A DNA stretch of 64,000 nucleotides from Desulfosudis oleivorans (GTDB lineage Bacteria; Desulfobacterota; Desulfobacteria; Desulfobacterales; SURF-7). The stretch spans positions 62,001 through 126,000 of the forward strand of contig DYJD01000002.1 in NCBI GenBank assembly GCA_020723325.1. Reading direction: 5' to 3'. The translations under genes and the position numbers were made by a program. This document shows positions 38,453-59,995 of the stretch, in pieces (the stretch's first letter is position 1; every line of letters begins with the position of its first letter). Under the pieces are notes generated by a model. It did no database searches, was not told where the DNA came from, and worked only from the letters and a program-made list of their open reading frames with translations.

Positions 38453-39232
38453 CTAACATAGATCAAATTCTTGCCCTTTCACGACAAATCCATTGAATCC
38501 GTCCTTCACAGGATCTCTGTCCGGTTTGGGTTGGTAGTGGTAGAGCCACATCTTTTTTTTGATCTCCGGGGGAAGCGTGCAGAGTTCGTCATAATGGGCG
38601 TGGACCGTTGTCCGGAAAGCTGTGGTCTCCACATCATGAAAAATCAAGCCCACCTCCGTATGGATGTGGGTTAAAAATTCGGGTTGAAACTGGGTGTCCG
38701 TTGAAATAAACACATTGGGGCTTCCACCGGTTTCCGACATCAACAGGCCGTAGCTGTAATGATTCCGCGAATCCGCCATAACATGGGGCATCCGCCACAA
38801 TGTAAAATCGATGGCCTCCCAGGTAAAACGATTTTCAGCGGATATGGGGAAGCATTCAAAATAATCGTCCAGGTGCATCACCTTGCCCTTGATGCATTTT
38901 AGTCCGCCCTGCAAGGAATGGTTCCAGAGTTCCTCCATGGTCGCCGTGTTCATGAAGAGTTTGGGGGGAGGTGAATTGGGAACGAAATAGGTGTTGATGG
39001 CGACCCACTCGAGACCGCCGATATGGTCCGAATGGAGATGGGAGATGTAGACCGCCTCGATCTCGCGGCCGAAATTTGCCGCGTTAATGCCGGCTTCATT
39101 CAGAGAAAAACGGATATCGCTGCCGCAGTCCAACAGCAGTTTTTTCCCTGACTGCGCGGTGATCAGCAGGTTCGACTGGTAGTAATCCGCTGTTGTGAAA
39201 GCCGAGCCGACCCCCAGAAATTTTATTTTCAA
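38453..39232 (-). CDS. Metallo-beta-lactamase-fold hydrolase, candidate phosphodiesterase
   Basis: The 259-residue protein begins at a TTG that overlaps the stop codon of the cyclase gene by 4 bp. It has the metal-binding motif HLHSDH at 65-70, the early Asp in LLLDCGSD, a later STDTQF Asp and a C-terminal LYHYQPKPD His. The fold covers RNase Z, glyoxalase II, and cyclic nucleotide phosphodiesterases. Being coupled to a nucleotide cyclase makes a cAMP/cGMP phosphodiesterase role attractive, but it could also be a redox or RNA enzyme. It is the last gene of the operon. Confidence 0.82.
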   Translation of the reverse strand: MKIKFLGVGSAFTTADYYQSNLLITAQSGKKLLLDCGSDIRFSLNEAGINAANFGREIEAVYISHLHSDHIGGLEWVAINTYFVPNSPPPKLFMNTATMEELWNHSLQGGLKCIKGKVMHLDDYFECFPISAENRFTWEAIDFTLWRMPHVMADSRNHYSYGLLMSETGGSPNVFISTDTQFQPEFLTHIHTEVGLIFHDVETTAFRTTVHAHYDELCTLPPEIKKKMWLYHYQPKPDRDPVKDGFNGFVVKGQEFDLC

Positions 39233-40704
39233 TGGTTTTTCCTTTGTGTGTGCAGGTTCAGGACTTTGCCGAGAAAGACCTCCGCTTCCGGCGGAATCGA
39301 CGTAAAATTGACCCGGAACGAAGAAGGCGAAGCCACGTCGGTGACCTTGGCGTATAGATCCGTGGTGACGGCCTGGCTTTTTTCGTCAAACAGCGTGATC
39401 TTGATGTTCACCAGCTTCTCCAGTTCCAAGTCCGCTGTTATCGCGGCCGCCTGTTCGATGATACCGGTGATGGACCCGGAATGCAAATCGCTGCCGGCGT
39501 GTTTGCCGGCGAGGACCGTAAACTGAATGTTCAGCGGTTCGGCCAGGTCCAGGAGCTCCAGTGCTTTTTTCTTGGGCAGCTGGATATTGAATTTCCCCCC
39601 CACGCCGCCGATTTCATAGATTACGATGGGTTCCTTGACCCCCTTGGGCATAACTTCCAGCTGGTCGTCCACCCTCAGGATATCTCCGCAGGCCTTGAGG
39701 GTGCTCTCGGAAATATAGGTCTGTCCGCCGACGGTGTAGGATTCTATCCGGGCGGTCAGGTTCACGTTCCGGCCCACGCAACCGTATTTCATCCGTTTCA
39801 TGGAGCCGATGTTGCCCACCACCACCATGCCGGTATTAATCCCGATGCCCTGATGAACTTCGGGATAGCTTCTTTCCCGGCATTTTCGGTTGACCTCGGC
39901 CATGGATAGCTGCATTTCCAGGGAACAGGCCACGGCCCTCAGGGCGTCGTCTTCCCGCTGGATGGGAGCGCCGAAGATGACAAAAATGGCATCACCGATG
40001 AATTCGTCGATGGTGCCTTTGTATTTCAAGATGATTTCCGTCATGGTTTCAAGATAGATATTGATGATATCCACCACCTCCTCCGCCGGCAGCCGCTCGC
40101 CGATGGCGGTAAAGCCGCGGAGATCCGTCATCATGATGGTGACCTGCCTTTTGTCACCACCCAAGATGGCACCGTCTGGGGTCTCGAGGATGCTGTCGAC
40201 AATATCGTCCGACAGATACTGGCCGAAGGTTTTCCGAATGAACCGGTTGGCCCTTTCCAGGTGGTCCATGGCCTCGTTTCTTTCCAGGAGGTTGATGTAG
40301 CCCCGGGAATGGTAGCGGATGCGGGCGATGATCTCCAGGGGGTCCGGGAGTTTCACCATGTAGTCGTTGGCCCCCAGGGCGAACGCCTCGGCCTTGGTGC
40401 GGGCCTCTTCCTTGCTGGAAAGAACGATCAGGGGCACGGCGGCGGTTCGACGGTTGGCGCGGAAATAGCGGACCAGGGTTAGGCCGTCTATGTCCGGCAT
40501 CACCAGGTCCTGGAGAATCACCGTGGGCTGTATCTGGTTGGCCTTTTTGATTGCCAGGGTTGGATCCTGGCAGTAGTGGAAATCGATGTCGGGCTCCGTG
40601 TTCAGCATCCGCCGGACGGTTTCGCCGATGATGGCCTGGTCATCCACCAGGAGGACGGTTATCCTGTGCTCCGCCAGTTTTGTCTCCGCTAACGCGCTGT
40701 TCAC
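39229..40704 (-). CDS. Response regulator with class III nucleotidyl cyclase output
   Basis: The protein has about 491 residues from GTG 40704, which overlaps the cheB stop (GTGA). Residues 14-135 are a receiver with Asp66 in ILQDLVMPDIDG. After a coiled linker a class III cyclase (about 186-370) keeps both metal aspartates (Asp194 in MTDLRGF, Asp238 in FIGD) and the transition-state residues Asn315 and Arg319 in NVNLTARIES. The purine-specifying positions are Glu234 and Gly308, not the Lys/Asp pair of adenylate cyclases, so the product (cAMP or cGMP) is open. A C-terminal beta-rich domain (about 390-491) is unassigned. It takes the place of WspR. Confidence 0.93.
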   Translation of the reverse strand: MNSALAETKLAEHRITVLLVDDQAIIGETVRRMLNTEPDIDFHYCQDPTLAIKKANQIQPTVILQDLVMPDIDGLTLVRYFRANRRTAAVPLIVLSSKEEARTKAEAFALGANDYMVKLPDPLEIIARIRYHSRGYINLLERNEAMDHLERANRFIRKTFGQYLSDDIVDSILETPDGAILGGDKRQVTIMMTDLRGFTAIGERLPAEEVVDIINIYLETMTEIILKYKGTIDEFIGDAIFVIFGAPIQREDDALRAVACSLEMQLSMAEVNRKCRERSYPEVHQGIGINTGMVVVGNIGSMKRMKYGCVGRNVNLTARIESYTVGGQTYISESTLKACGDILRVDDQLEVMPKGVKEPIVIYEIGGVGGKFNIQLPKKKALELLDLAEPLNIQFTVLAGKHAGSDLHSGSITGIIEQAAAITADLELEKLVNIKITLFDEKSQAVTTDLYAKVTDVASPSSFRVNFTSIPPEAEVFLGKVLNLHTQRKNH

Positions 40705-41780
40705 TGCAAAAAACGTCTCCCTTCCCGTTTGGATAGAAAAGCGATGATGGCCTGGGCGATGGCCTCCACCGGCAGGCACTCCACCGCGGCGTTGAGCTGG
40801 ACAGCCGCCTTGGGCATACCGTAAACCGAGGAAGTGGCCTCATCCTGGGCGATGGTATGCCAACCCAGCCGGCGAAGCTCCCCCAAGCCCTTGGCGCCGT
40901 CGTTCCCCATGCCGGTCAGGATGATGGCGATGCCGCTGTCCGGCCAGTTTTCCGCAGCGCTGTGAAAAAAGACATCCACCGACGGGCGGAACGGTACATC
41001 CTTCGGTTCCGAGGTATACGCGAAGCGGCGTTCGGGGGTCAGGACCATGTGGTCATTGGTGCTGGCCACATAAATGGTGCCGGCCGCCGGATCGGTACCC
41101 TCCCTGGCCAGTTCCACTTTCATGACAGCCTGTTTGGCGAGCCAGTTGACCATATTGGCGGAAAATTCCTCCAGTACATGCTGGATAATGACGATGATGG
41201 CCGATAGCTGACCGGGGAGGCCGCCGAGAATCTTTGCCAGAGCCTTGGGCCCGCCGGTGGAAGCACCGATGATGACCAGGGGGGCGGCGGGTTTTTCAGC
41301 ATCCCGGCTTGACGAAGGGCGGGAGACGGCTTGGACCTTGGCCGGTTCCTGCGGACCTGCCGGTGGGTTTTGCTTGTCCACCGATTTTTTCAGGATGCCG
41401 GCTTTGCGGATCTTTTTGCAGAGCAGCTCATCGAAGGAACGCGCGCCGGCTTTGTCGGTTCCGATTTCAACGGCATCCACCGCCCCAAACCCCATGGCCT
41501 TGAATATTTCGCCGGAATGGGCATCAATATCCGACGTTAGAATGATGATCTGGCACGGTGTTTTCTGCATCATCCCCCGGGTCACTTCGACGCCGTTCAT
41601 CACCGGCAGGTCGATATCCAGGAGGACCACGTCGGGACGGTTGGTTTCCACCTGCTTTATGGCCTCGGAACCGCTTCCGGCGGTCCAGACAATCGAGAAA
41701 TCCACCTGCTTATCGATGCATTTCCGTAGAGAGCACAATACTTCGACGTCATGATGGGCGATGCCGATGCGCATGGTCAC
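40701..41780 (-). CDS. cheB: Chemotaxis methylesterase CheB (WspF-like)
   Basis: The 359-residue protein begins at a GTG overlapping the cheA stop by 4 bp. The receiver has Asp in VVLLDIDLPVMNG (about 56). The methylesterase domain has the catalytic Ser (GASTGGPKAL), His (IIQHVLEEF) and Asp (GMGNDGAKGL). It removes methyl groups from receptors to reset sensitivity when phosphorylated by CheA. Order and domain content match WspF. Confidence 0.95.
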   Translation of the reverse strand: MTMRIGIAHHDVEVLCSLRKCIDKQVDFSIVWTAGSGSEAIKQVETNRPDVVLLDIDLPVMNGVEVTRGMMQKTPCQIIILTSDIDAHSGEIFKAMGFGAVDAVEIGTDKAGARSFDELLCKKIRKAGILKKSVDKQNPPAGPQEPAKVQAVSRPSSSRDAEKPAAPLVIIGASTGGPKALAKILGGLPGQLSAIIVIIQHVLEEFSANMVNWLAKQAVMKVELAREGTDPAAGTIYVASTNDHMVLTPERRFAYTSEPKDVPFRPSVDVFFHSAAENWPDSGIAIILTGMGNDGAKGLGELRRLGWHTIAQDEATSSVYGMPKAAVQLNAAVECLPVEAIAQAIIAFLSKREGRRFLQ

Positions 41781-45360: not shown

Positions 45361-46667
45361 GGCGCCTCCGTCTTGTTGCGAATTCTATCCATACGTTCCT
45401 TTATCCTCGTCGCCTTCATGCGGTCACCGGCCTGTTCGGCCAGGATCAACAAATGCTGGAGCGCATCCAGATGGCTCGGCTTCAGATACAGCACCCGGTT
45501 GAAACACTCACCGGCTTGGTGGTTGTCATCCCTGGCGCCGCAGATGACCCCCTGGAGGAAATAGGCTTCCACGAAGCCGCTGTTTCGTTTGATGATTTCC
45601 TCACAGAGGGCGAAGGCACTGTCCAAGTCGCCCTGATCCGCCAGATGCCGGGCCTTGTCAAAAAGCTCGGGAAGCTCCCCTTTGCCCTGGCTGGGCAACT
45701 TGGCGTTGTCCGCCTGGTATTTGGGCCGGACGGGGATTTGGGGGGTCTCCGCGGGCTTGGGAACTGCAATCGGACCAGGGGCAGGGGCCGGACTAGGCCC
45801 TTTCGTCGCTACCGGCGCCCTGGGCGGAGGAGACGGCGCTTTCGATGCCGTCTTGGCCGGTTTGTCCGAGGCGGCTACCCGCCGGTAGGCGAAGATGCCG
45901 ACCTGCCGGATCCGTTCCATCTGGTTTTCCGCAAACGGGTATTCTTCCGCATGCCCCATAAACAGAAGGCCCCCGATATTCAGCAGACGCTGCAGAACAG
46001 CCGCCGCCTTTTTTTTCGCTGAGTTGCTGAAGTAAATAAACAGGTTCCGGGAGAGGATGATGTCGTAAGGGGGCGTGTTTGTAAGAAACGTTTCGGCGAT
46101 GATATTGCCCTGCAGGAAGGTCACCGTTTCCCGGATGGCCGGTATCAGAAGATATCCATCTGGTGTTTCTTGGAAATAGCGCTCCCGATACTGCAGGCTG
46201 TCCCCCCGGAAGGAGACTTTTTCGAACACCGCGCCCTTGGCTTTTTTCAATACGTAGGCGCTGATATCCACTGCATCGATGTGGAACCTTCCAGGCGGAA
46301 AACCCATGTCGAACAGGATCATGGCGATGGTATAGGGTTCTTCGCCGGTGGCGCAGGGGATGCTCAGGATCCTCAGATTGCTGCCCTGCCTGGATAACAA
46401 CCAGGTGTTTCTGATGTGATCGGCCAGGTATTCCAACTGCTTGCGGTTCCGGAAAAACCAGGTTTCCGGAATGGTCAGCTCCTCTATGAGTTCTTTCATC
46501 TCCGGGTTGGAGGTCGTAAGAAGGTCGTAATAGTCTTGGGTGGAGGAAAGCCGGCAAGCGGCCATGCGTCTGGCCACCACCTTTTGAAAGAACTCCTTTC
46601 CGATGGCGCCGGTGGACAGGCCGATGGTTTCTTCCATTAGAGCTTCAAGAGACGCTAACGATTCCAT
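45357..46667 (-). CDS. cheR: CheR methyltransferase with TPR tail (WspC-like)
   Basis: The 436-residue protein starts in a TAATG overlap with the upstream cheW stop. CheR features are present: ELTIPETWFFRNRKQLEYLA, ILSIPCATGEEPYTIAMIL (SAM-binding motif), IDAVDISAYVL and ILSRNLFIYFSN. A Pro/Ala-rich linker (about 285-330) leads to tetratricopeptide repeats (DLDSAFALCEEIIKRNSGFV, EAYFLQGVICGARDD). It methylates receptor glutamates. The TPR fusion and position match WspC. Confidence 0.94.
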   Translation of the reverse strand: MESLASLEALMEETIGLSTGAIGKEFFQKVVARRMAACRLSSTQDYYDLLTTSNPEMKELIEELTIPETWFFRNRKQLEYLADHIRNTWLLSRQGSNLRILSIPCATGEEPYTIAMILFDMGFPPGRFHIDAVDISAYVLKKAKGAVFEKVSFRGDSLQYRERYFQETPDGYLLIPAIRETVTFLQGNIIAETFLTNTPPYDIILSRNLFIYFSNSAKKKAAAVLQRLLNIGGLLFMGHAEEYPFAENQMERIRQVGIFAYRRVAASDKPAKTASKAPSPPPRAPVATKGPSPAPAPGPIAVPKPAETPQIPVRPKYQADNAKLPSQGKGELPELFDKARHLADQGDLDSAFALCEEIIKRNSGFVEAYFLQGVICGARDDNHQAGECFNRVLYLKPSHLDALQHLLILAEQAGDRMKATRIKERMDRIRNKTEAP

Positions 46668-47116
46668 TATTCCTCGATGATGGAAACGAATTGCAAACTA
46701 CGGGGTAGAAGGTCCAGGTCAATGAACTGGATCATCTCTTCGTCCAACATGACGACATTTTTCAGATAAGGCGCCGTGTCCATCACCACGCCGGAAGGCA
46801 GAAAAGCGTCCGCCGTTTTACGAACTGTCTCGGTTACCCGCTCGGCCATGAGGCCGATGGTATAAGGTGCTTGGTTCTGCCGTTCAAAATCCACCAGGAT
46901 AATCCGAGTGCTCAGGCGCATCTCGCAGGACTTGCCCTGGATCAGACGTCGCAGGTCGATAACCGGAACAATGACCCCCCTGTAGTTCAAAAGACCGACG
47001 ACAAATTCCGGTGCCTGGGATATTTCCTTCAGCCGCACCATGGGCGCCACCTCCCGGACCTTTTCGCATTTTATGGTGTACATCTCGTCGCCGAGATAAA
47101 ACAAAAGCAGCAGCAT
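46667..47116 (-). CDS. cheW: CheW coupling protein (WspB-like)
   Basis: The 149-residue protein starts at ATG 47116 (MLLLLFYLGDEMYTIKCEKV). A GTG three codons upstream is possible, whereas the much longer frame to 47215 overlaps the receptor gene and is unlikely. CheW features include VREVAPMVRLKEISQAPEF and GLLNYRGVIVPVIDLRRLI. It couples the receptor encoded just upstream to CheA. Confidence 0.9.
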   Translation of the reverse strand: MLLLLFYLGDEMYTIKCEKVREVAPMVRLKEISQAPEFVVGLLNYRGVIVPVIDLRRLIQGKSCEMRLSTRIILVDFERQNQAPYTIGLMAERVTETVRKTADAFLPSGVVMDTAPYLKNVVMLDEEMIQFIDLDLLPRSLQFVSIIEE

Positions 47117-47183
47117 GGTTGACACCCGACCTTTTTTCAATGATTCATATGCCGCATGAAATCCGATATACGGGAGTAATGGG

Positions 47184-48839
47184 TTACACCACTTTAAACC
47201 GGGACGCTTGTTCATGGAGCCGTCGGGCCGCGTCGTTCAACTCCCCGATGGCCATAAAGGTCTCCTGCAGGGAATCGGTGGTCTGATGCATGACCACACC
47301 CAGGTCGGTCATGGTGAGATTCATTTTTTGGGCATTCTCGGACTGATTTACCATGGCGGTGTTGATTTCCCTGAATTTGGGATAGAGCGCCTGCACCTGG
47401 TCGATGATCCGGGTGAGCTGGGAACTGATTTTCGTGATGTCCTCGGCGCTGCGCTGCACTTCGGCAATGAACTTGTCCATTTCCATGACCCCCGAAGACA
47501 CGGCCGATTGCATTTCCTTGACCATCTGGTCGATATCCAGCGTGGCCACAGCGGTTTGATCCGCAAGCCGCCTGATCTCACGGGCCACCACCGTGAAGCC
47601 GCGGCCGTACTCACCGGCCTTTTCCGCTTCAATGGCCGCGTTCAAGGACAGGAGATTGGTCTGATCGGAAACCTTGGTGATGGTGGTGACCACGTTGGTG
47701 ATGTTTTCCGCCTTTTCATAAATGGTGCCCAGCCTGGCGGAAATGGCGCTGGAAGCCGATTCCATCTGTTTCATGGCCTCGCCCATGCGTGTGAGGTCCG
47801 ACTGCCCGCTGCTGGCGTAATCGGCGGTTTGGTTCAGGTCATTGGCCATCTGCTGCATGGTGTTTACCAGGTTTTCCGCGATATCGGAAATCCCCTCAAT
47901 GGATTTCACCATGTTCTCCGTGGACGATAGTTGGTTGTTCAGCACGGTCTTTTGCTCGGTGGCGGAAGCCGACAATTCTGTGGATGACGACGTGATCTGC
48001 ACGCCGGATTTCTGAACCTGCTCTACGATGGACCGGATCTGTTCTAGAAAATCATTGAAGAGCTTTGCCAGGGTGCCCAGTTCGTCTTCCGAGGCAATCC
48101 GCAGACGCCTGGTCAGGTCCGCTTCGCCGGCGGAAAGATCCTTGAACCCTTCGATGACCCGGGTGAGGGGCTGCTTCACAAAACGATTCACGAAATAGTA
48201 CATGGCTCCGAGAAAGAAAATCACAATGAGAACAAGACCATAGAAGGAATTGATCATGGAGCGTGTTTTGGCGTCGGAGATGATCCGCTCTGCATTTTTT
48301 TTGGCGTCTTCCAAGGCTTGGGTGGAAAACGTCATGCCGGTGACACCGCAGATTTCACCTGTTTTCCAGTTGTTGTGACACCGCATGCAGGTGGGCTCCA
48401 CCACATGGGGCTGATAAATTTCAAAAGTGCCGGAGGCGGCATTTTCGTTGATCTGTTTTTTGGGGTCGGCATAGAGTTTTTTGGCCAGATTGGCCGGCAT
48501 CTTTTTGTTTAGGTTGGAAGGATAGGATGAATGGGTCACCACGCCGTTCCGGTCGTAGAGGGAAAATTCCAGCACACCTTGGACCGTCCGCTGGGCCTCG
48601 ATGAGCCGGGTAAATTTTTCCATCTCCCCGCGCACCAGGGAACCTTTCACTGCTTGTTCCACCGAGTTGAATTGGTTTTCGGCGAATTGTTTTTCCCTGT
48701 TTTCCAGGGCTTCGATGGTTTTTTGGGACAATTCCGAAAGCATCCCCACCGTGCCCAGATACTGGATGCACATGGCGATCAGCACCGACGCCACCAACGC
48801 GGACAGAATGGCGATACTGAGCTTGACATGCAGTTTCAT
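47184..48839 (-). CDS. Chemoreceptor with c-type haem motif (WspA-position)
   Basis: The 551-residue receptor has GGGAGGGAAA before its ATG. Span 1 is at about 7-27. The periplasmic domain (about 30-195) contains CMRCH at 151-155, a CxxCH haem c site, in a DUF3365/Tll0287-like context (YQPHVVEPTCMRCHNNWKTG). Span 2 is near 197-217 (FYGLVLIVIFFLGAMYYFVN), followed by a HAMP domain. The signalling tip (TNLLSLNAAIEAEKAGEYG, REIRRLADQTAVATLDI) is the WspA type. It starts only 3 bp after the hydrogenase small-subunit stop, so hydrogenase and receptor are co-expressed. It may sense redox state or a gas. Confidence 0.93.
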   Translation of the reverse strand: MKLHVKLSIAILSALVASVLIAMCIQYLGTVGMLSELSQKTIEALENREKQFAENQFNSVEQAVKGSLVRGEMEKFTRLIEAQRTVQGVLEFSLYDRNGVVTHSSYPSNLNKKMPANLAKKLYADPKKQINENAASGTFEIYQPHVVEPTCMRCHNNWKTGEICGVTGMTFSTQALEDAKKNAERIISDAKTRSMINSFYGLVLIVIFFLGAMYYFVNRFVKQPLTRVIEGFKDLSAGEADLTRRLRIASEDELGTLAKLFNDFLEQIRSIVEQVQKSGVQITSSSTELSASATEQKTVLNNQLSSTENMVKSIEGISDIAENLVNTMQQMANDLNQTADYASSGQSDLTRMGEAMKQMESASSAISARLGTIYEKAENITNVVTTITKVSDQTNLLSLNAAIEAEKAGEYGRGFTVVAREIRRLADQTAVATLDIDQMVKEMQSAVSSGVMEMDKFIAEVQRSAEDITKISSQLTRIIDQVQALYPKFREINTAMVNQSENAQKMNLTMTDLGVVMHQTTDSLQETFMAIGELNDAARRLHEQASRFKVV

Positions 48840-48842
48840 GGA

Positions 48843-49766
48843 TTATTTCCCTCCCCTTCCGGATGAAGCCGGCGTCAGGTAAAAAGGAAAGGATGCGTCT
48901 TTGGCAAATCCCTCCCGGGCGCATCCGATGCAAGGGGCGTTGGCGTTGATGCAGGTATTCGCCCCGCTGTTCCACAGCCGTACCGTGCAGTCCGCGTGGG
49001 TGACCGGGCCCTGACAACCGAGGTAGAAGAGACAGCCGTTCTCACCGAAGCTTGTCGCGAAGTGTTCCCGCTCGTATTCGGCGAATCTGGGGCACTGGTC
49101 GTGGAGTAAGCGGGAGTAGAACATTTTGGGCCGACCTAAATCGTCCAGCTCCGGGTTTCCGAATTTGAGCTTGTGTACGATGGTCCCGACGATCCAGTCC
49201 GGGTGGGCCGGGCATCCCGGGACCCGGATGAGACCTGTCGCAATGGCTTTTTGTTTGAGAAAATCGGGAACGCTGACGGCGCCTGTGGGATTGTTCTCTG
49301 CCGCCGGGATACCACCGAAAGAGGCACAGGCGCCCACGGCGATGACCGCCTGGGCGCTTCGGGCGGCCCGGGCCACCTGCTCGGTTATGGTCTCATGGCC
49401 GACCCGGCATGCGTTCGGCAGACCGACGGGCATGGCCCCCTCCACCACCAGGATGTAACCACCCCGGTTGATGCTTTTCTCGATCACATCCATGAAGGTT
49501 GCCCCGGTGGCGGTGGAGAGTGTCTGGTGGGCCATTAAAGCGATATAGCGTGTCAAGAGTTGCAGGGGGCCGGGATACTCGGTGTTCAGCAGTGAGATCG
49601 AACATCCCGAGCAGCTCTGGCCCTGAAGCCATAGGACCGGAGGATTGCTGGACGCCAGTTTTTCCAGGGCATCTACGATCCTTGGGGCCGCGCCGGTCCC
49701 CAGACCCATCAGCAGGGCAAGCTTTGAAGCGGCTTTGAGAAATTCTCTTCGTGTTATATTCAGCAT
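48843..49766 (-). CDS. [NiFe] hydrogenase small subunit, Tat-exported
   Basis: The protein has about 307 residues from ATG 49766, which has AGAGGA upstream. It starts with a twin-arginine signal (ITRREFLKAASKLALLMGLG), so the folded enzyme is exported with its large partner. Cluster-binding motifs are complete: QGQSCSGCSISLLN, VGACASFGG and VPGCPAHPDW for the proximal cluster, HDQCPRF with GCLFYLGCQGP for the distal, and CINANAPCIGC for the medial. No C-terminal membrane helix is present. Unusually, the gene follows that of the large subunit. Confidence 0.95.
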   Translation of the reverse strand: MLNITRREFLKAASKLALLMGLGTGAAPRIVDALEKLASSNPPVLWLQGQSCSGCSISLLNTEYPGPLQLLTRYIALMAHQTLSTATGATFMDVIEKSINRGGYILVVEGAMPVGLPNACRVGHETITEQVARAARSAQAVIAVGACASFGGIPAAENNPTGAVSVPDFLKQKAIATGLIRVPGCPAHPDWIVGTIVHKLKFGNPELDDLGRPKMFYSRLLHDQCPRFAEYEREHFATSFGENGCLFYLGCQGPVTHADCTVRLWNSGANTCINANAPCIGCAREGFAKDASFPFYLTPASSGRGGK

Positions 49767-49783
49767 GCGGTATCCTCTTTTTT

Positions 49784-51313
49784 TTAATGTACGGCACAGG
49801 CAATGCACGGGTCAAAGGAACGGATCACCCGTGTCGCTTCGATGGGATTTTCTGGATTCTTAATCCGCGTTCCCACCAGGGCTTGCTCCACTGCCCCTGG
49901 TTTTCCGGAGGCATCCCGAGGAGAACAGTTCCAGGTGGTGGGTACCACACACTGGTAATTCGCTATTTTCCGGTTTTTAATCTGGATCCAATGACCCAGG
50001 GCACCCCGGGAAGCCTCGGTCAAACCGACGCCGGAAGCTTCTTCCGGAATGGCCACCGCAGTTACCGCGGGCTCATCGGGTTTCAGTTCCGCGAGCCATT
50101 CCGCGCAGCGGTCCGCCACGAGCTTGCATTCAATGGCTCTTGTGGCGTGGCGGCCCAACACCGATACCAGATTTTCTGCTTTTGCCCCCAGTTTCTTCAG
50201 GACGCCATCCACCAGCGTTTTTACCTGGTGGTGCCGTCCGCTGTTCTGTTTATAGGCGATCAGGATCCGGGCAAGAGGGCCCACTTCCATGACCTGACCC
50301 TCGTAACGGGGCGCCTTCAGCCACGAATAGGCGCTTTCCTTCTGGCCCGGATCAACCGGCGCCGTGACACCCGTAGCGGGATTCAAGACCGCTGCGGCTT
50401 TGTACCATGAAAACGTCACGTCCTCGGTGATCCCCGAAGGATTGAAGCTCCGGGAGGGTCCATCGCCGATGATGACTCCGGTGGGCAGAAAATGGTCGGT
50501 GTTGCCCTCTGCCTCGGAGAAGGCGCCGTAGGAAAGAAAATTGCCGCATCCTTTACCTGCCTGAAAATACTCGGGGAAGGCCTGGGCCACGGCCAGGACA
50601 TCCTCAAGATAGGCGTTGTCGACAAATACCCGCAGCTTTTGCAGCATTTCGCCATAGGCCGCTATCTTGCGGGGGGTGACCCGTTCCGTCACCCCACCAG
50701 GCACCAGGGTGGCCACATGGGGTAGCTTTCCGGCGAACAGAGCCCCCATCTCGTGGGCCAGCCGACGCATCTCCAGAGCATCCAGGTAATGCTTCACCGC
50801 CGTGATATTCAGTTCCGGGTCTTCCGCGTATTGACTTTCATACCGTGGCAGAAAAGGTGCCACCGGGTAGAGGCTGTTGGAGGAAAGCTGACTTTGCACC
50901 CATGCCTTGAGTTCGCTAAGCGCTGGGTCCTTACCGTTGTATTGGGTGACGGCTTTGATATCGATGAAGTCCAAGGCGGACAAGTGGTAGAAATGAATGA
51001 GGTGGGATTGAATATAATTTGCACCCAAAATCAGGTTTCTCAGGAGCTTGCCGTTTCGAGGCGGGATCACTTTGTAAGCCGCTTCCTGAGCCAGAGTCGA
51101 AGCTATACCGTGGGATACGGGGCAGACCCCGCAAATCCGTTGGGTGATCTGCTGGGCATCCATGGGGTCCCGATTTTTCAGGATGAGTTCAAAACCGCGG
51201 AACATTTCCCCCGAACAATACGCTTCCATCACCTGGTTCGATTCAATCCGAAGCCTTACGGCAAGATGCCCTTCAATTCTCGTTACAGGATCTATCCCTA
51301 TGGTTTGGGCCAT
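49784..51313 (-). CDS. [NiFe] hydrogenase large subunit lacking the C-terminal extension
   Basis: The protein has about 509 residues from MAQTIGIDPVTRIEGH (ATG 51313; an ATG at 51334 is also in frame). The Ni-Fe ligands are Cys61/Cys64 in RICGVCPVSHG and Cys503/Cys506 in DPCIACAVH. The protein ends exactly at this His509. Catalytic hydrogenases usually carry a further 10-30 residues that a dedicated protease removes, and H2-sensing hydrogenases (HupV/HoxC) lack them. No maturation genes, cytochrome b or protease adjoin it. It leads the hydrogenase-chemosensory operon. Confidence 0.95.
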   Translation of the reverse strand: MAQTIGIDPVTRIEGHLAVRLRIESNQVMEAYCSGEMFRGFELILKNRDPMDAQQITQRICGVCPVSHGIASTLAQEAAYKVIPPRNGKLLRNLILGANYIQSHLIHFYHLSALDFIDIKAVTQYNGKDPALSELKAWVQSQLSSNSLYPVAPFLPRYESQYAEDPELNITAVKHYLDALEMRRLAHEMGALFAGKLPHVATLVPGGVTERVTPRKIAAYGEMLQKLRVFVDNAYLEDVLAVAQAFPEYFQAGKGCGNFLSYGAFSEAEGNTDHFLPTGVIIGDGPSRSFNPSGITEDVTFSWYKAAAVLNPATGVTAPVDPGQKESAYSWLKAPRYEGQVMEVGPLARILIAYKQNSGRHHQVKTLVDGVLKKLGAKAENLVSVLGRHATRAIECKLVADRCAEWLAELKPDEPAVTAVAIPEEASGVGLTEASRGALGHWIQIKNRKIANYQCVVPTTWNCSPRDASGKPGAVEQALVGTRIKNPENPIEATRVIRSFDPCIACAVH

Positions 51314-52244
51314 TCCGTCATTTCTCCGTTCCATTTGGGTTTAAAATAACTACATTATCTTATGGAATATTATGTTGATTTTGTTTCTGTATATGTTTTG
51401 GGAATTGAAAGCCTCGCCTTTCGGTGTCGGTTGCAGCGAGCGGTTATAGCCGAAGCCATGGAAGGACTATCGACACGACTTATATACGGTATCCGTGATC
51501 CATAATCATTCGAATTGGAGCACGAATTACCGAAAGTAATTACGTAAAGGAGATTAATGGTATCTGGTTAAAGAGTTGATCCGGGAAATAGACAAATGGC
51601 ATGTTTCCAAGCATCATAATATACGTGTTTGAATCAATCCCCCCCCGGAAATATCGATTCAATATCTTTTCACACAACGATTGAAGGGAGATACCTTGTC
51701 TTATGTAATGGTGAAAAATCCAATCCACGCTATATTAATATCTCAAAAAGCATCTCCGGTGTCAACCAATAATCTGGAGGGGCATTGCTGAATTTTGAGT
51801 ATCATGAGCCATTTCCGCCAATAAATGGTTTGACATCTCGGGCGCTGCTTGTTATGATTCCTTATCATTAATTGGTATTCTTTAACTATTCTTTTTTTCC
51901 AGCGATAACCCGAAAAAATAAATATAGATACCATTGGGAAAAGATCCAAGGAAGAACGAACAGCAGTATCGTCTTGTCTGTCATTGTCTCACCCCATAAA
52001 CCGTGTACGTTCAGCCTAGTAAACACTTCCAAACGGGTATGTTCAAGAGGCAGCCATTATGGATATGTCTGATGACTGTGGAGCAGGGGAAATGAATCAC
52101 CGCCTGTGGATGAAATAGCGAGAAGATCAGCAGGGATGCATCAAAAACCGACCCTGCCAGAGGCATGAGTGTAAACCGATGAGCATGACAAGTGCCGCTT
52201 CCGCTGTTCGCCGTGACACAACATTGCACCAAGGGGTGACCTGT
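51314..52244. other. Divergent control region between the hydrogenase operon and a receptor gene
   Basis: No gene is supported in this 0.9-kb gap, which must hold the promoters of both transcription units. A GC-rich structured patch at 51411-51457 has CTCGC/GCGAG and CGGTTATAGCCG arms amid AT-rich sequence. Short frames inside the gap lack ribosome binding sites and recognisable motifs. Confidence 0.6.
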
Positions 52245-54242
52245 ATGTGGAAGAGATTTTCCTTTTCGAAAAAATTGATGATGATCATGGGATTATTCGG
52301 AACCGTGGTCATCGCCGGCGGTGGCATAAGTGGATACATCCTGTTCAAGATCACGATTACCGGTGATATTCACAAAAATTTGGAATATATAACCAATTCG
52401 ACCTACAACCTGGTCGACACGGCGGTCGAGGTGGCGATCCGTAGTCATTTAAAAACCATCGCCGAAGACGATAAGGCCGTGTTGACCTATTATCATGGTC
52501 TGGTGGAGCAGGGGAAAATGTCCGAACAGGAAGCAAAAGATCTGGTCAAACAGATCATCCTGAAAAAGACCATCGGCAAGACCGGCTATGTTTATTGCAT
52601 CGATACCACGGGAACGGTACGAATCCACCCCAAGGATGCGCTGGTGAATGTCAACCTCTCAAAATATGGTTTTGTCCAGGAGCAGTGCCAGAAAAAAGAA
52701 GGCTATCTTGAATATCTCTGGAAAAATCCAGATGACCCCCAGGAACGGGCGAAAGCCTTGTATATGACCTATTTCGCTCCCTGGGACTATATCGTGTCGG
52801 CTTCCTCGTATAAATCGGAATTCAATACCCTGGTGACCACCAAGGATTTCCGCGATAAGGTATTGGGCATCACCATCGGAAAAACAGGCTATTTGTATAT
52901 AATGGATTCAAAAGGTGAGTTGATTATTCACCCCAAGCTGGAGGGACAGAATATCTACAATTCACAGGATTCCAGCGGGAAGTATTTCATCCGGGAAATG
53001 TGTTCAAAAAAAAACGGTCAAATCATCTACCCCTGGAAGAATCCCGGGGAAAAACTGGCCCGGGAAAAAATAGTTCATTACCGATATTTGGAAGAGATGG
53101 ATTGGATTATTGCCAGTGGGGTCTATCTTGATGAATTATACGCTCCATTGGACCTGTTGCTCCTTTCCGTGATCGGGGGGGCGCTCCTCATGCTCTTCTG
53201 CGCCGGGCTGCTGGCAATTGTTTTGGGCCGCTCCCTTTCGAAGCCGATTCACAATTTGGCCCATTATGCCGAATTGATCGGCCGTGGACAATTGGATGTG
53301 ACCATCCCCATAACCAGCCGGGATGAAATCGGGGATCTTTCGAATACCTTTAACATGATGGCCGCCAACCTGAATCGATTTATCGGGCAGGTTCAGCATT
53401 CGGGCATCCAGGTCACCTCTTCATCCACGGAACTCGCGGCCACCGCCAAAGAGCAGGAAGCCATCATGATAAACCAGATGAATTCAATGGATACGATGGT
53501 GGAAAAAATCAAAAATATGTCTGAAGTTTCGGCGCAATTGATGCAGACCATGCAACATCTGGCTGCCATAGCAGAGGAAACGGCGGACTCGGTCAGCGAC
53601 GGTCAGACCGATTTGTCCCGGATGGGCGACGCGATGCAATTGATGGAAAAGGCCTCAAAGGCTATATCCAGCCGCCTGGAAACCATCAACGAAAAGACAG
53701 AGAATATTACCACAGTGGTCACCACCATTACCAAAGTGGCGGAACAAACCAATCTGTTGTCGTTGAATGCCGCCATCGAAGCAGAAAAAGCCGGGGATTA
53801 TGGACGCGGGTTCACCGTGGTGGCCCGGGAAATCCGGCGTCTGGCCGACCAAACCGCGGTGGCCACGCTGGATATCGAGCGCATGGTCCAGGCCATGCAA
53901 TCCGCCGTGGCTTCCGGCGTCATGGAGATGGATAAATTCATTGCGGAAGTTCGGCACAGCGCCGACGATGTGAGCAAGATCAGCAACCAGCTTCGCCGGA
54001 CCATCGAACATGTCCAAACCCTGACACCGAATATCGAGCGGGTGAATACAGCCATGGGTGAGCAGTCCGAATCAACCCAGCAAATCAACATCGCGATCAT
54101 GGAATTACAACAGGAGATGCAGGAAACAAAAGCATCTTTGCATGAAAACTATTCGGCCATTTCTCAGTTGAATGACGCGGCCAGGACGCTGCAAGATGAA
54201 GTGTCCCAGTTTGTGGTCAGCGAGTCAGAAAAAGAAAGCTGA
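52245..54242 (+). CDS. Double-Cache chemoreceptor with WspA-type signalling tip
   Basis: The receptor has about 665 residues from ATG 52245 (MWKRFSFSKKLMMIMG), with AAGGGGTGA upstream. After span 1 the periplasmic part holds two similar Cache modules: TIGKTGYVYCIDTTGTVRIH then FAPWDYIVSASSYKSEF, and TIGKTGYLYIMDSKGELIIH then MDWIIASGVYLDELY. Span 2, a HAMP domain and a signalling domain follow. The tip TNLLSLNAAIEAEKAGDYG and REIRRLADQTAVATLDI is nearly that of the haem receptor of the adjacent operon, so both probably feed the same CheA. Confidence 0.93.
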   Translation: MWKRFSFSKKLMMIMGLFGTVVIAGGGISGYILFKITITGDIHKNLEYITNSTYNLVDTAVEVAIRSHLKTIAEDDKAVLTYYHGLVEQGKMSEQEAKDLVKQIILKKTIGKTGYVYCIDTTGTVRIHPKDALVNVNLSKYGFVQEQCQKKEGYLEYLWKNPDDPQERAKALYMTYFAPWDYIVSASSYKSEFNTLVTTKDFRDKVLGITIGKTGYLYIMDSKGELIIHPKLEGQNIYNSQDSSGKYFIREMCSKKNGQIIYPWKNPGEKLAREKIVHYRYLEEMDWIIASGVYLDELYAPLDLLLLSVIGGALLMLFCAGLLAIVLGRSLSKPIHNLAHYAELIGRGQLDVTIPITSRDEIGDLSNTFNMMAANLNRFIGQVQHSGIQVTSSSTELAATAKEQEAIMINQMNSMDTMVEKIKNMSEVSAQLMQTMQHLAAIAEETADSVSDGQTDLSRMGDAMQLMEKASKAISSRLETINEKTENITTVVTTITKVAEQTNLLSLNAAIEAEKAGDYGRGFTVVAREIRRLADQTAVATLDIERMVQAMQSAVASGVMEMDKFIAEVRHSADDVSKISNQLRRTIEHVQTLTPNIERVNTAMGEQSESTQQINIAIMELQQEMQETKASLHENYSAISQLNDAARTLQDEVSQFVVSESEKES

Positions 54243-54360
54243 TGACGGCCACGCTTTCCTGATGGCGGTTTTCTATAGCGACCGGAACAGGCGGGGAAGG
54301 CATTCGATTCCCTGCGTCCCTTTATATGCGTAGTGCTCATCTCAAACCGGAGGCATGTAT

Positions 54361-56733
54361 ATGGAAACTGAAAAGCAAAGCGGCGAGAACCACCAGAAAA
54401 ACAAGCCGGGATCTTTGGACCCCATCCAGGCAAGGCTCGAATACGAGGCCCGCCTGCGGAAGCTATCCAATGCCATCCATGCAGCTGAGAATATCGACGC
54501 CATCTTAATCGGCCTGCGGGAAAAGATTCTCGAACTTTACAATGCCGAGCTTGCCACCATATATCTGGTGGACGGAAAACGGAAACAGATCGTTTCGCGG
54601 GTGAAAAAGGCCGAGGAAGATCTCAAGGAAATCCGGATTCCCATCAGCGCCAAAAGTCTTGCGGGTTACGTGGCACTGACCGGCAATGTGATCAATATCA
54701 AAGATGTCTATGACAAGAACGAACTGCTGAGCATCGATCCCGACCTGCAGTTCGACTCTTCTTGGGACGTGAAAACAAATTACCGGACCCGCCAGGTGTT
54801 GGCGGTGCCAATTTTGTTCAAGCAAAAGATTCTCGGTGTCATCCAGCTGATCAACTGCAAGCATGGTGATTTTTTCACAGCGGACGACCAGCGGCTCCTT
54901 TCGGATATTGCTGAAGTTCTTGGCATCGCCTTTCATAACCAAATGCGGCTCATGCAGCCCAAGCAGGCCACCCGTTTCGATACCCTCATCAAGAACGCCG
55001 TGATCACGGAAAAAGAGCTGGGGAATGCCATGGAAACCGCTCGCAGCAAAGGCATGCATGTGGAGACCGTGTTGATCCGTAATTTTCACGTTTCGAAACG
55101 GCAGCTCCTGGAGAGTTTGTCCGCTTTCTACAACACACCCGCGGAAAGCTTCATCGATGAGGCCTACGATCCCGGGCCACTGGCAGGCAGCACCAAGATC
55201 GAGTATTTCAGAAAATCCCGCTGGATCCCTCTGAAAAAAGAGGCGGATGGAATCGTCATTGCCGTGGACGACCCCAATGACCAATTACGCATCCAGGAGA
55301 TCAAGACCGTGTTCGGCGCCTCCAAACTGTCCTTCCGCGTGGCCCTGCGGGAAGATATCGACGCGTTCATCAACGCCTATAAACGGTCCCCGGGACCCGT
55401 CATCCTCCAGGGCGGCCGGGATTTTGATGAAGTGCTCGAAAAAATGCAGGATGATGCCACCACTCCCCAAGCTGAGGCCTTTAGCGCTTCCGAAACGGTG
55501 GCTGTGGATGAATCCGAAGAAGCCGGGGCCGCTGTTCAGATGGTCCGGAAAATCATGGAGACCGCCCACATCAAGGGGGCTTCCGATATCCACATCGAGC
55601 CCTACGGTGCCAACCGGGATACGGACATCCGTTTCCGGATCGACGGCGAATGCCTCGATGTGCTGAAGATTCCGAAGAATCATATCAAGCCGGTCATCTC
55701 CCGGATAAAAATCCTGGCGGAGCTGAACATCTCCGAACACCGGCGGCCCCAGGACGGAAAAATCAAATTCAAAACTTCGGACGGGGAGAGCATCGAGTTT
55801 CGGGTGGCGACAATCCCCACCGCCGGCGGCAATGAGGATGTGGTCATGCGGCGGCTGGCCTCCAGTGACCCGTCTAGCGGGATCATGGCCCTTGACAAAA
55901 TCATGTCTGCGGGAACCTTCAAAATTTTTTCCAAAAACATCCAGAAACCCCATGGGATCATCTTGGTGGTGGGGCCCACCGGTTCGGGCAAAACCACCAC
56001 CCTGCATTCGGCGTTGAACTTCATCAATACACCGGCGCGGAAAATATGGACGGCCGAAGACCCGGTGGAAATCACCCAGTACCGCCTAAGGCAGGTCCAG
56101 GTCAATCCCAAAATCGACTACACCTTCGCCAATGCCATGCGGGCTTTTCTGCGGGCCGATCCGGATGTGATCATGGTAGGAGAAATGCGCGACAAGGAGA
56201 CCATGCAGACCGCCATCGAGGCGTCGCTCACCGGCCATCTCGTTTTCAGCACCCTGCATACCAATTCGGCGCCGGAAACCATCGTCCGTCTCATCGACAT
56301 GGGCATCGACCCCCTGAACTTCGGGGATGCCCTGATCGCCATCCTGGCCCAGCGGTTGGTCAAGACCCTTTGTCCCAAATGCAAGGAAGCCTATCATCCC
56401 GACGAACAAGAATACCAACACTACAAAGAACTCTACGGCGAATTTTTTGACCAACGGATCAATAAGCCGTATAGCGACGAATTGACCTTCTACCGGCCCA
56501 AAGGCTGCGACATATGCCGCGAGACAGAGGGTTATAAGGGACGGCTGGGCATTCACGAACTGCTGGTGAACACCAATGAGCTGAAACAAAGGATCATCCG
56601 CAAAGCCCTGGTGGATGAGGTCCGCAAACAGGCCATCAAAGAAGGCATGTCCACCCTCCTGCAGGACGGCCTGTACCGGATCTTTACCGGACACACGGAT
56701 TTCCGGCAGGTGACCAGCGTCTGCGCCGTGTAG
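54361..56733 (+). CDS. GAF-domain PilB/GspE-like assembly ATPase
   Basis: The protein has about 790 residues from ATG 54361, chosen because GGAGG at 54349-54353 is 7 bp away and almost touches the ATG at 54355. Residues 25-195 form a GAF-like domain (AENIDAILIGLREKILELYN; VLAVPILFKQKILGVIQLIN). A GspE/MshE-type N-terminal domain follows (about 200-350), then the ATPase: Walker A GPTGSGKTTTLHSAL, Walker B DPDVIMVGEMRDKETMQTAI and the His-box FSTLHTNSAPET. A zinc tetracysteine (CPKCKEAY, CDIC) is as in PilB. It would power pilus or pseudopilus extension. No pilin genes lie in the window. Confidence 0.92.
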   Translation: METEKQSGENHQKNKPGSLDPIQARLEYEARLRKLSNAIHAAENIDAILIGLREKILELYNAELATIYLVDGKRKQIVSRVKKAEEDLKEIRIPISAKSLAGYVALTGNVINIKDVYDKNELLSIDPDLQFDSSWDVKTNYRTRQVLAVPILFKQKILGVIQLINCKHGDFFTADDQRLLSDIAEVLGIAFHNQMRLMQPKQATRFDTLIKNAVITEKELGNAMETARSKGMHVETVLIRNFHVSKRQLLESLSAFYNTPAESFIDEAYDPGPLAGSTKIEYFRKSRWIPLKKEADGIVIAVDDPNDQLRIQEIKTVFGASKLSFRVALREDIDAFINAYKRSPGPVILQGGRDFDEVLEKMQDDATTPQAEAFSASETVAVDESEEAGAAVQMVRKIMETAHIKGASDIHIEPYGANRDTDIRFRIDGECLDVLKIPKNHIKPVISRIKILAELNISEHRRPQDGKIKFKTSDGESIEFRVATIPTAGGNEDVVMRRLASSDPSSGIMALDKIMSAGTFKIFSKNIQKPHGIILVVGPTGSGKTTTLHSALNFINTPARKIWTAEDPVEITQYRLRQVQVNPKIDYTFANAMRAFLRADPDVIMVGEMRDKETMQTAIEASLTGHLVFSTLHTNSAPETIVRLIDMGIDPLNFGDALIAILAQRLVKTLCPKCKEAYHPDEQEYQHYKELYGEFFDQRINKPYSDELTFYRPKGCDICRETEGYKGRLGIHELLVNTNELKQRIIRKALVDEVRKQAIKEGMSTLLQDGLYRIFTGHTDFRQVTSVCAV

Positions 56734-56768: not shown

Positions 56769-58628
56769 TTATGAACGTTGGGTTTTGGGAATGTCGGCCA
56801 GCAGTTTTTCCATCATCTGTTTGTCCGGCGCTTTGCTCATGGCTTCCTGATAATCGATTTTGCGACGTTTTACCAATGCCGCCAGCTCTTCCACCAGCAA
56901 ACGGTGACCATGGGACTTTCCAGTTTGCATGGCGGAGGCCACCTGGGACAATTTGTTTTCACGGATCAGATTGGCGATGGGCAGATTGACCACCAGGATT
57001 TCCTGAGCGGCCACGCGACCGCCGCCGACACATTTGCACAGCATCTGGGATACCACGCCTTTAAGGGTGTCGCATAAATTGGAACGAACCTGGTTCTGCT
57101 GATCGGCGGGAAATGCATCCACAATCCGCGTAACCGTGCTAATGGCGCCGCTGGTGTGTAAGGAACCCAACACCAGATGGCCGGTATTGGCGATTTCCAG
57201 GGCGAACTTGATGGTCTCCAGATCGTTCAGCTCGCCGATGAGGATCACATCCGGGTCTTCCCGCAGAACGGCGCGCAAAGCGGAGTGGTAGGTTTGGGTG
57301 TGTCGGCCGATTTGGCGCTGATTGATCAGCGCGCGGTCACTTTGATGAACGAACTCGATCGGCGCCTCCAGGGTGATGATATGATCGGGGCGCGTTTTGT
57401 TGATATGATCCACCAGGGCCGCCAGGGTCGTCGACTTGCCGGAGCCGGCGGGACCGGTTACCAGCAGCAAGCCCATGGAATGCTCGCAAAGCGTCTTGAG
57501 TGTCGCCGGCATTCCCAGTTGATCAAGGGACATGACCTTGGAGGGAATGACGCGAAAAGCCGCACTGACACCGTGGTCGTCCCGGTAGATATTGACCCGG
57601 AAACGGCCCACCCCCGATATCGTATAGGTGAAGTCAGCATCATTGGTTTCCAGGAAGGCATTTTTGGTTTGCGCTTCCATGATGGGTCCGATCAGGTCAA
57701 ACACCTCTTCCGAACCCAGCGGGCTGATATCGCTGATGGCTTTCAGATCACCGTCAATCCGCCAGTACGGCGTCTGACAGGCGGAAAGGTGCAGGTCGCT
57801 GGCGCCTTCGGCCACCAGCCGTTTCAAAATGGCATCCAGTTGGGGCGAGCTCTTTGGCTGGACGGGCGCAGCCGCTTCTATTTTTCCTTCCGCGGCCCGT
57901 TTCTTACCCAAATCGGGTACACCTGCCTGGGACTGGAGTACGGAATCGAAAAAATCATTTTCGATATTCACCATTTGCAGCTCGACTCCCGGCAGGGTGC
58001 TGCGGATTCCGGAAAGAACTCCGGGGGTGGGATCGTGCACAAAACCGATAAGCAGTTTGTTACCGTCCATTCTTAGGGGGAGCACGCGATGGCGAATGAT
58101 CAGGTCCAAGGGAACGATTTGGAATATTTCTTTGGTCAGTCCAGCGGCGGTTGCCTGATATTTGGGTAAAGAAATATTGGACGAGAGTTCGAAAACCCGT
58201 TTGGCTAGATTGCGACAGATGGCGGGACCGAAAGCCGGTATGTTTTCAAACATATAATCGAACAATTTACTATCGAATTTCAGCATCAAAGTGGGTTGAA
58301 TGGCTTGGACAGTGGCGGTCCTGGATTTCTTCAACATCAGGCTGATTTCACCGATCACGTGAAAGGGCTTGATTCTCCCGATTTCGATGAGTTCTCCCGT
58401 GGTTTGGTGGGAATGGAGAATGGCCACTTGTCCTTCGATAATCAGCAGAAAGGAATCCGAGGGTTCATCCACCTTGACGATGGCTTCATCGGATTCATAC
58501 TGAATCAATCCGGCTCTTTGGGCGATCTGATTTAGGGCTTTTTCACCCAGGGAACCAAAAATATCCGATTGCGCCAAGGCAGTGACGACCTTTTGTAAGA
58601 CATCCCCTTCAATATGTAATGGCTTCAT
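56769..58628 (-). CDS. Cyclic-nucleotide-binding PilT-like ATPase
   Basis: The 619-residue protein has a cNMP-binding domain (about 20-140) whose phosphate-binding cassette VIGEISLMLKKSRTATV keeps Glu94 and Arg103. A GspE N-domain-like segment (about 150-240) follows. A PilT-type retraction ATPase then spans about 270-600, with Walker A GPAGSGKSTTLAAL, DPDVILIGELNDLETI (usual GEMRD changed to GELND), and SLHTSGAISTVTRIVDAFP. Fusion of a cyclic-nucleotide sensor to a PilT motor suggests that pilus retraction is set directly by cAMP or cGMP. It converges on the PilB-like gene. Confidence 0.92.
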   Translation of the reverse strand: MKPLHIEGDVLQKVVTALAQSDIFGSLGEKALNQIAQRAGLIQYESDEAIVKVDEPSDSFLLIIEGQVAILHSHQTTGELIEIGRIKPFHVIGEISLMLKKSRTATVQAIQPTLMLKFDSKLFDYMFENIPAFGPAICRNLAKRVFELSSNISLPKYQATAAGLTKEIFQIVPLDLIIRHRVLPLRMDGNKLLIGFVHDPTPGVLSGIRSTLPGVELQMVNIENDFFDSVLQSQAGVPDLGKKRAAEGKIEAAAPVQPKSSPQLDAILKRLVAEGASDLHLSACQTPYWRIDGDLKAISDISPLGSEEVFDLIGPIMEAQTKNAFLETNDADFTYTISGVGRFRVNIYRDDHGVSAAFRVIPSKVMSLDQLGMPATLKTLCEHSMGLLLVTGPAGSGKSTTLAALVDHINKTRPDHIITLEAPIEFVHQSDRALINQRQIGRHTQTYHSALRAVLREDPDVILIGELNDLETIKFALEIANTGHLVLGSLHTSGAISTVTRIVDAFPADQQNQVRSNLCDTLKGVVSQMLCKCVGGGRVAAQEILVVNLPIANLIRENKLSQVASAMQTGKSHGHRLLVEELAALVKRRKIDYQEAMSKAPDKQMMEKLLADIPKTQRS

Positions 58629-59302: not shown

Positions 59303-59995
59303 ATGGTAACATCTACATTCGGTACGGTGAAAAAATACCACAAGAACGAAATAATTTTTCAAGAGGGGGATCCCGGGACCCATGGATTTCTTATCAAGAG
59401 CGGAGAAGTGACGATTTTTCGTATCTTCGGTCTTAAAAAAAAGATATTAAACGTTCTGCTACCGGGAGAAGTATTTGGAGAAATGGGTGTTATCAATCAA
59501 GCGCCTCGCTCTGCCGATGCGGTTGCTTCGGACGATTGTGAATTGGTGGTCATCGACAAAAACACATTTTTGCGAGCGCTGAATGAATCCCCAAAACTCA
59601 TTCAATCGATTACCCATACCCTGATGAAACGATTGATGATTTTAACCGAAATGGTGAGTGGGAATGAAAATCAAGAGGCCGCGACTGAACAGCAATTCAT
59701 CCGTATTTGCAAACTCCTTCATTGGGTTAATAAATATGCTGACCCCGCTGCCGGCATGTCCTTTGACTATGATGAGTTCTGTGACAATGCAATGGACATT
59801 ATCGGAGTATCGCGACTTGAAATCTATAACATGCTGGAGAAGCTATCTTTATTAAAGTTACTAGAAATATTGGGTGATCTGAATGAAAAATCAAAGAGCC
59901 GGATAAAAATTGTGAAACCGGATGATTTTTTAAAACAAGCTCAAAGGGCCTTCGAATCTTTACCAGAGAAATCTCCATCAACTAAAAACAAATAA
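59303..59995 (+). CDS. CRP/FNR-family cyclic-nucleotide-binding regulator
   Basis: The 230-residue protein has a cNMP-binding domain with the cassette VFGEMGVINQAPRSADAVA (Glu60 and Arg69 kept), so it should bind a cyclic nucleotide. The dimerisation helix (SITHTLMKRLMILTEMV) and a C-terminal winged-helix-like region (FCDNAMDIIGVSRLEIYNML) follow. The DNA-recognition helix is less standard than in CRP. It lies in the same island as the cyclase and is a plausible transcriptional output. No cysteine cluster of the FNR type is present. Confidence 0.88.
   Translation: MVTSTFGTVKKYHKNEIIFQEGDPGTHGFLIKSGEVTIFRIFGLKKKILNVLLPGEVFGEMGVINQAPRSADAVASDDCELVVIDKNTFLRALNESPKLIQSITHTLMKRLMILTEMVSGNENQEAATEQQFIRICKLLHWVNKYADPAAGMSFDYDEFCDNAMDIIGVSRLEIYNMLEKLSLLKLLEILGDLNEKSKSRIKIVKPDDFLKQAQRAFESLPEKSPSTKNK

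Follow-up and report, generated by a model that had tools for sequence, protein, structure and literature searches.

Can the retraction motor of a type IV pilus be gated directly by a soluble cyclic mononucleotide? The question is raised by one gene in a 64,000-nucleotide stretch of Desulfosudis oleivorans DNA (hereafter the window; bases 62001-126000 of contig 13; the genome has 113 contigs and 7.2 Mb in total). Among pilus motors, extension ATPases are known that have fused control by the second messenger c-di-GMP (Roelofs et al.), PilT and PilU were thought to be without a second-messenger domain (PMC4624772), and the cAMP control of pili known so far acts on transcription (PMC11656802). 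No description of a PilT with a cyclic-nucleotide-binding (cNMP) domain was found in the literature searched. The reading that we develop here, and regard as an even call, is that the gene encodes a PilT-family motor that would be gated by a cyclic mononucleotide, most likely cGMP from a chemosensory cyclase. The gene and the parts of its product are as follows.

56769..58628 (-), cNMP-PilT fusion ATPase, 619 aa with an ATG start (ORF call, Pfam/NCBIfam, orthologs)
58245..58505 (-), cNMP_binding domain, residues 42-128 (Pfam PF00027; family profile matches PKA RI, PKG and CRP)
58311..58352 (-), phosphate-binding cassette (PBC) GEISLMLKKSRTAT, residues 93-106, with Glu94, Arg103 and Thr104 (codons, ortholog alignment)
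57921..58136 (-), C-terminal half of GspE-N/MshEN, residues ~165-236, without the MshE-type c-di-GMP motif (partial MshEN match)
56820..57839 (-), PilT/PilU ATPase module, residues 264-603 (TIGR01420 and ATPase tree)
57429..57455 (-), Walker A GPAGSGKST, residues 392-400 (alignment)
57354..57374 (-), Asp box TLEAPIE, residues 419-425, Ala422 replacing Asp (alignment and codons)
57222..57236 (-), Walker B GELND, residues 465-469, Asn468 replacing Arg and Glu466 kept (alignment and codons)

Our analyses confirmed that a cNMP domain is fused upstream of a PilT-type motor. Residues 42-128 matched cNMP_binding (PF00027) in Pfam with 45.3 bits against a cut-off of 27.5, and the codons verified Glu94 (GAA) and Arg103 (AGG), the two residues on which the initial annotation had based its description of an intact cassette. 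The GspE-N-like segment and full PilT ATPase that it placed after the cassette were likewise borne out. Specifically, residues 165-200 gave a partial Pfam match to MshEN (20.3 bits, under the cut-off of 23.1, and to profile positions 14-48 only), residues 263-574 matched T2SSE in Pfam with 145 bits, and residues 264-603 matched the NCBIfam PilT/PilU model TIGR01420 with 421.8 bits (cut-off 319.1), over model positions 2-341 of 343. The NCBIfam profile of the MshE-type c-di-GMP motif, NF053729, had no match in the fusion protein, and none was listed for its orthologs. Structure prediction of the fusion from four sequences was too poor for use (mean pLDDT 53, pTM 0.32).

When the first 300 residues of the fusion were used as a query against 389 genomes of the order, four full-length orthologs came to light, in four other families, with 51-58% identity over the whole length. 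All four keep the three-part layout and the PBC, and the fusion is therefore not a product of chance; four independent orthologs also rule out an assembly or ORF artefact as its origin. The orthologs are soluble and about 610-625 residues long, which makes the sensor question directly testable. The family is rare and patchy, with one species per family: the fusion was absent from 11 other genomes of the window's own family, from eight other genomes searched in the family of G592, which carries an ortholog, and from two searched in that of G419. The same 300 residues revealed no further PilT fusions in 395 genomes of the phylum, two conserved peptide patterns run against 84,980 species genomes recovered three of the four known orthologs and nothing else, the viral contigs scanned contained no relative, and plasmid records gave PilT-domain matches only, none spanning 80% of the fusion query. 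Since it was only the window's phylum that was sampled deeply, and genome searches scored the best few candidates per genome, independent cNMP-PilT fusions are possible in other phyla. One genome with a full fusion (G462) also encodes a free-standing 155-aa copy of the sensor domain, 46% identical (L066 236-703, plus strand).

Among the five fusions, conservation within the cNMP domain is highest in the PBC: 8 of its 14 positions are invariant, compared to 16 of the 73 other positions (Fisher p 0.011). In the alignment, Arg103-Thr104-Ala-Thr is invariant in all five, and Glu94 is found in four, with Asp in the fifth. This is the pattern that would be expected from a working ligand pocket, and it suggests binding while falling short of proving it. 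When a profile of the five N-terminal regions was compared with the PDB, it matched PKA type I regulatory subunits (97 bits), cGMP-dependent kinases and CRP. A Thr after the cassette Arg occurs in cGMP-dependent kinases and also in some cAMP-binding channels; thus, Thr104 is compatible with either ligand.

The motor belongs with the retraction ATPases. In a quick tree of ATPase domains, in which several deep forks are open, the five cNMP-PilT proteins formed one clade (SH-aLRT 99) among PilT/PilU proteins, and the PilT clade, including the fusion, was split from PilB/GspE with an SH-aLRT of 100. Two other sources of the motor part were rejected on this tree: the cNMP-PilB fusions described below form a separate, distant clade, and the cNMP-PilT clade does not have as its sister an MshEN-PilT paralog encoded just beyond the window.

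The window copy departs from its orthologs at two places in the motor. The initial annotation had pointed to a Walker B motif altered from GEMRD to GELND, and the codons for Glu466 (GAG) and Asn468 (AAC) establish that the change is real; the catalytic Glu is nonetheless kept, and we do not claim that GELND alone abolishes activity. The other change, which that annotation missed, lies in the Asp box, which reads ITLEAPIE in place of EDPIE, with Ala422 (GCG) where all other ATPases in which the motif was found have Asp or Glu; the motif is E[DE]P in the pilus and secretion ATPases used for comparison. The motifs of the orthologs are canonical (MEDP[IV]E in the Asp box, [GA]E[ML]RD in Walker B), so that Asp422Ala and Arg468Asn are private to the window copy among the five fusions. 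Its motor activity may be reduced, and given the two private changes the protein may be a weak or regulatory subunit, not a full motor. Indeed, the protein could act as an inactive or PilU-like partner that assembles with a canonical PilT into one ring and relays the cNMP signal without being a motor itself. This alternative, which is compatible with the main reading, is possible if on balance doubtful: loss of the Asp-box Asp and of the Arg beside the Walker B Glu argues for it, as does the presence of at least four other PilT-family genes in the genome, whereas the window copy retains Walker A, Glu421, Glu466 and the His-box His491, its gene has no frameshift, its ATPase scores 100 bits over the PilT cut-off, and the orthologs show no such changes.

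To place the proposed gated motor in its setting, the genes on either side of the fusion and those of a chemosensory operon in the window are listed here.

59303..59995 (+), protein with a single cNMP_binding domain (86.6 bits)
54355..56733 (+), GAF-MshEN-PilB-type extension ATPase, convergent with the PilT gene across a 35 bp gap (Pfam/NCBIfam)
52179..54242 (+), methyl-accepting protein with double Cache and HAMP (Pfam)
47184-48839 (-), methyl-accepting chemotaxis protein (MCP) with a CxxCH (haem c-like) motif (ORF and Pfam)
46667-47215 (-), CheW (ORF and Pfam)
45357-46667 (-), CheR (ORF and Pfam)
44689-45360 (-), CheW (ORF and Pfam)
41777-44878 (-), CheA-REC (ORF and Pfam)
40701-41780 (-), CheB (ORF and Pfam)
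39229..40779 (-), response regulator-class III cyclase, Cya2-like, with guanylate-type Glu (IDEFIGD) and Gly (KYGCVG) (profile/PDB comparison)
38453..39232 (-), relative of the metallo-beta-lactamase-fold cyclic-nucleotide phosphodiesterases of the Apyc1 family (profile)

The protein encoded at 59303-59995, just past the PilT gene, is a possible second cyclic-nucleotide receptor; Pfam recognised no DNA-binding family in its C-terminal part. The c-di-GMP motif match of the GAF-MshEN-PilB-type ATPase reached 23.4 bits, under the cut-off of 38, and the tree places it with two relatives from the same genome, both close to it in length (L006, L007). The cyclase that the initial annotation placed in the same island as the fusion does exist; the two share an island only loosely, as the cyclase lies 16 kb off, at the end of the chemosensory operon, with hydrogenase, MCP and PilB-type genes in between. 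Those hydrogenase genes (48843-51334, minus strand) encode the small subunit, with a twin-arginine-like signal, and the large subunit of a [NiFe] hydrogenase and end 3 bp before the gene of the CxxCH MCP on the same strand, which suggests redox or hydrogen sensing.

The operon runs on the minus strand in the order MCP-CheW-CheR-CheW-CheA/REC-CheB-REC/cyclase-phosphodiesterase, mostly with overlaps of a few bases. This is the gene order of the Wsp system, MCP-CheW-CheR-CheW-CheA/REC-CheB-output, and the REC domain of the cyclase is closest to the WspR-type structures 3bre and 3i5a. In contrast to WspR, with its GGDEF output, the output here is a Cya2-like cyclase, and a phosphodiesterase gene is added. 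The part from CheA to the phosphodiesterase recurs in other genomes of the order (L096, L100, L101), and the fusion-bearing genome G592 has a CheR-CheW-CheA-CheB-REC/cyclase-phosphodiesterase cluster, on a contig other than that of its fusion gene. Our literature search found no description of a Wsp-like operon ending in a guanylate cyclase and an Apyc1-type phosphodiesterase.

Which messenger this operon would make can be read, with some caution, from the cyclase. Its ORF probably begins some 30 codons upstream of the true start. The catalytic domain is closest to Synechocystis Cya2 (2w01) and to 6fht, an engineered fusion that is set apart by a Lys at the first base-recognition position. In other cyclases, swaps of base-recognition residues shift the substrate between GTP and ATP, and Cya2 is described as a guanylate cyclase (PMC7384201). 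The Glu/Gly pair was present at the positions aligned with Cya2 2w01 in 19 of 19 REC-cyclases of the family whose motifs were read. Cyclases also adjoin the fusion gene itself in two of the four orthologs. At one of these loci (L064) a class III PAS-cyclase with the guanylate Glu/Gly pair (KEYVGD, SYGVLGD) lies 82 bp downstream on the same strand; at the other (L062) a class III cyclase of another type is convergent with the fusion gene at 132 bp. The chance of such adjacency in at least two of four is about 2e-4, as calculated from the 22 and 12 cyclase matches in the L064 and L062 genomes, respectively. Moreover, a Cya2-like cyclase (E 1e-90 or better) was found in four of the five fusion genomes compared to 30 of 380 across the order (Fisher p 1.5e-4). 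Leaving out the window genome, which was selected because it has both, gives p 1.5e-3. This association and that of adjacency both involve few genomes and searches in which only the best candidates per genome were scored.

Because the operon's cyclase is closest to the guanylyl cyclase Cya2 and carries the Glu/Gly pair, as does the L064 cyclase, cGMP is favoured over cAMP, and we consider it the more likely messenger on these sequence grounds; the initial annotation had named both nucleotides for binding and ATPase assays. The same device could respond to cAMP, or to both nucleotides, with the chemosensory guanylate cyclase serving other receptors, an alternative that we rate as somewhat unlikely. 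The PBC is as near to that of PKA RI as to that of PKG, and the Arg-Thr pair is one that cAMP-binding channels share. The genome contains 25 cNMP domains and seven cyclase matches, six of them class III matches beyond the operon's own, so the source and target of the messenger need not be the chemosensory cyclase and the fusion. In addition, one of the fusion carriers, G422, yielded no match to a Cya2-like cyclase at E 1e-90. The guanylate pair of both the neighbourhood cyclase and the cyclase beside the L064 fusion argues against cAMP.

Ligands have been lost or changed in many cNMP-fold domains, and the sensor could accordingly be a domain that senses no mononucleotide, serving in docking or binding c-di-GMP instead. 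A precedent for the latter is the CRP relative Clp, which binds c-di-GMP and has an N-terminal cNMP domain (PMC3749722). We consider this unlikely, given the retention of the cassette Arg in every fusion and of an acidic residue at position 94, the concentration of conservation in the cassette and the cyclases that adjoin two orthologs. Still less probable is that the machine served by the motor is not a retracting type IVa pilus but, for example, a type II-like secretion or adhesion system: pilus structural genes were unrecognised beside the gene in the loci examined, where neither a pilin nor a PilC gene was seen, and the fusion has a GspE-N half-domain that ordinary PilT does not, yet both a curated model and the tree make its ATPase PilT/PilU, a PilB-type gene is its near neighbour in the window, and the pilus gene PilM scored above cut-off in four of the five fusion-bearing genomes, which indicates that these genomes have pilus machinery available, encoded elsewhere than next to the fusion gene.

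The relation of the fusion to known motors is one of familiar parts in a new combination. Its whole ATPase module is like that of PilT/PilU (332 bits over 331 residues with Pseudomonas aeruginosa PilT, PDB 3jvu/3jvv), with Walker A, the catalytic Glu and the His box shared. Ordinary PilT, however, has no N-terminal regulatory domain, whereas 250 residues of cNMP sensor and GspE-N half precede the motor here, and the private Asp-box and GEMRD changes further distinguish the window fusion. Like the MshE/PilB-type ATPases with a c-di-GMP-binding MshEN (PMC4624772), the fusion carries an N-terminal second-messenger domain on a T2SSE motor and shares the second half of GspE-N; in place of the half with the c-di-GMP motif it has the cNMP domain, and the motor that it carries is a retraction-type one. 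Conserved cNMP-GspE-N(half)-PilB ATPases, mostly of 665-700 aa, are encoded in two other families of the phylum (L037-L049). These have the same order of parts and an intact PBC (GEMALL..PR[TS]A), but their ATPase is of the extension type, with CxxC motifs, and their front ends are 21-27% identical to that of the fusion. A cNMP domain on a pilus-type motor is therefore not unique to the window, and its fusion to PilT is the new part. With c-di-GMP-gated motors and cNMP-PilB fusions already in existence, the protein is a new variant, not a new category.

The MshEN-PilT paralog offers a comparison within the genome.

L011 7007-8641 (C13:127506-129140, just beyond the window) (-), MshEN-PilT paralog, 544 aa (NF053729 63.2 bits, cut-off 38)

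Both proteins are PilT-type with an N-terminal second-messenger domain, which in the paralog has the c-di-GMP motif and may bind c-di-GMP, as judged from the profile match. Thus, one genome encodes a PilT-type protein with a c-di-GMP front end and another with a cNMP front end at the same place. Four further genomes of the family encode relatives of the paralog (L025, L026, L029, L033). Near its gene, on the plus strand (L011 9073-10215), lies that of a response regulator with DUF4388, which resembles the PATAN-CheY proteins that bind cyanobacterial pilus motors. At the level of the pathway, a parallel is the Pil-Chp/CyaB/Vfr system of P. aeruginosa (PMC11656802), which likewise leads from a chemosensory array through a class III cyclase and a cyclic mononucleotide to pili. 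In that system cAMP acts on transcription via Vfr. In the window, by contrast, the putative receptor and the motor are one protein, and the response regulator is itself the cyclase, which is guanylate-like.

The gated motor that we favour would operate as follows. The protein would be a hexameric ATPase of the PilT/PilU family in which the c-di-GMP-binding MshEN front has been replaced by a PKA/CRP-type sensor. CheA of the Wsp-like operon would phosphorylate the REC-cyclase, raising the level of a messenger that is probably cGMP. Binding of the cyclic mononucleotide at the phosphate cassette would move the sensor together with the GspE-N half-domain next to it, and at the base of the type IV pilus this movement would alter the assembly of the ring or its ATPase activity, turning retraction up or down. 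The metallo-phosphodiesterase encoded next to the cyclase would remove cGMP, resetting the signal. We put forward only tentatively the complete circuit, in which cGMP would replace c-di-GMP at both ends, with a Wsp-type array acting on a response-regulator guanylate cyclase, a phosphodiesterase reset and cNMP-PilT as the readout. If the proposed gating is correct, a cNMP sensor built into PilT would let the cell control retraction reversibly, with no need for new gene expression, and cGMP, a messenger that has few roles in bacteria, would gain a direct mechanical target.
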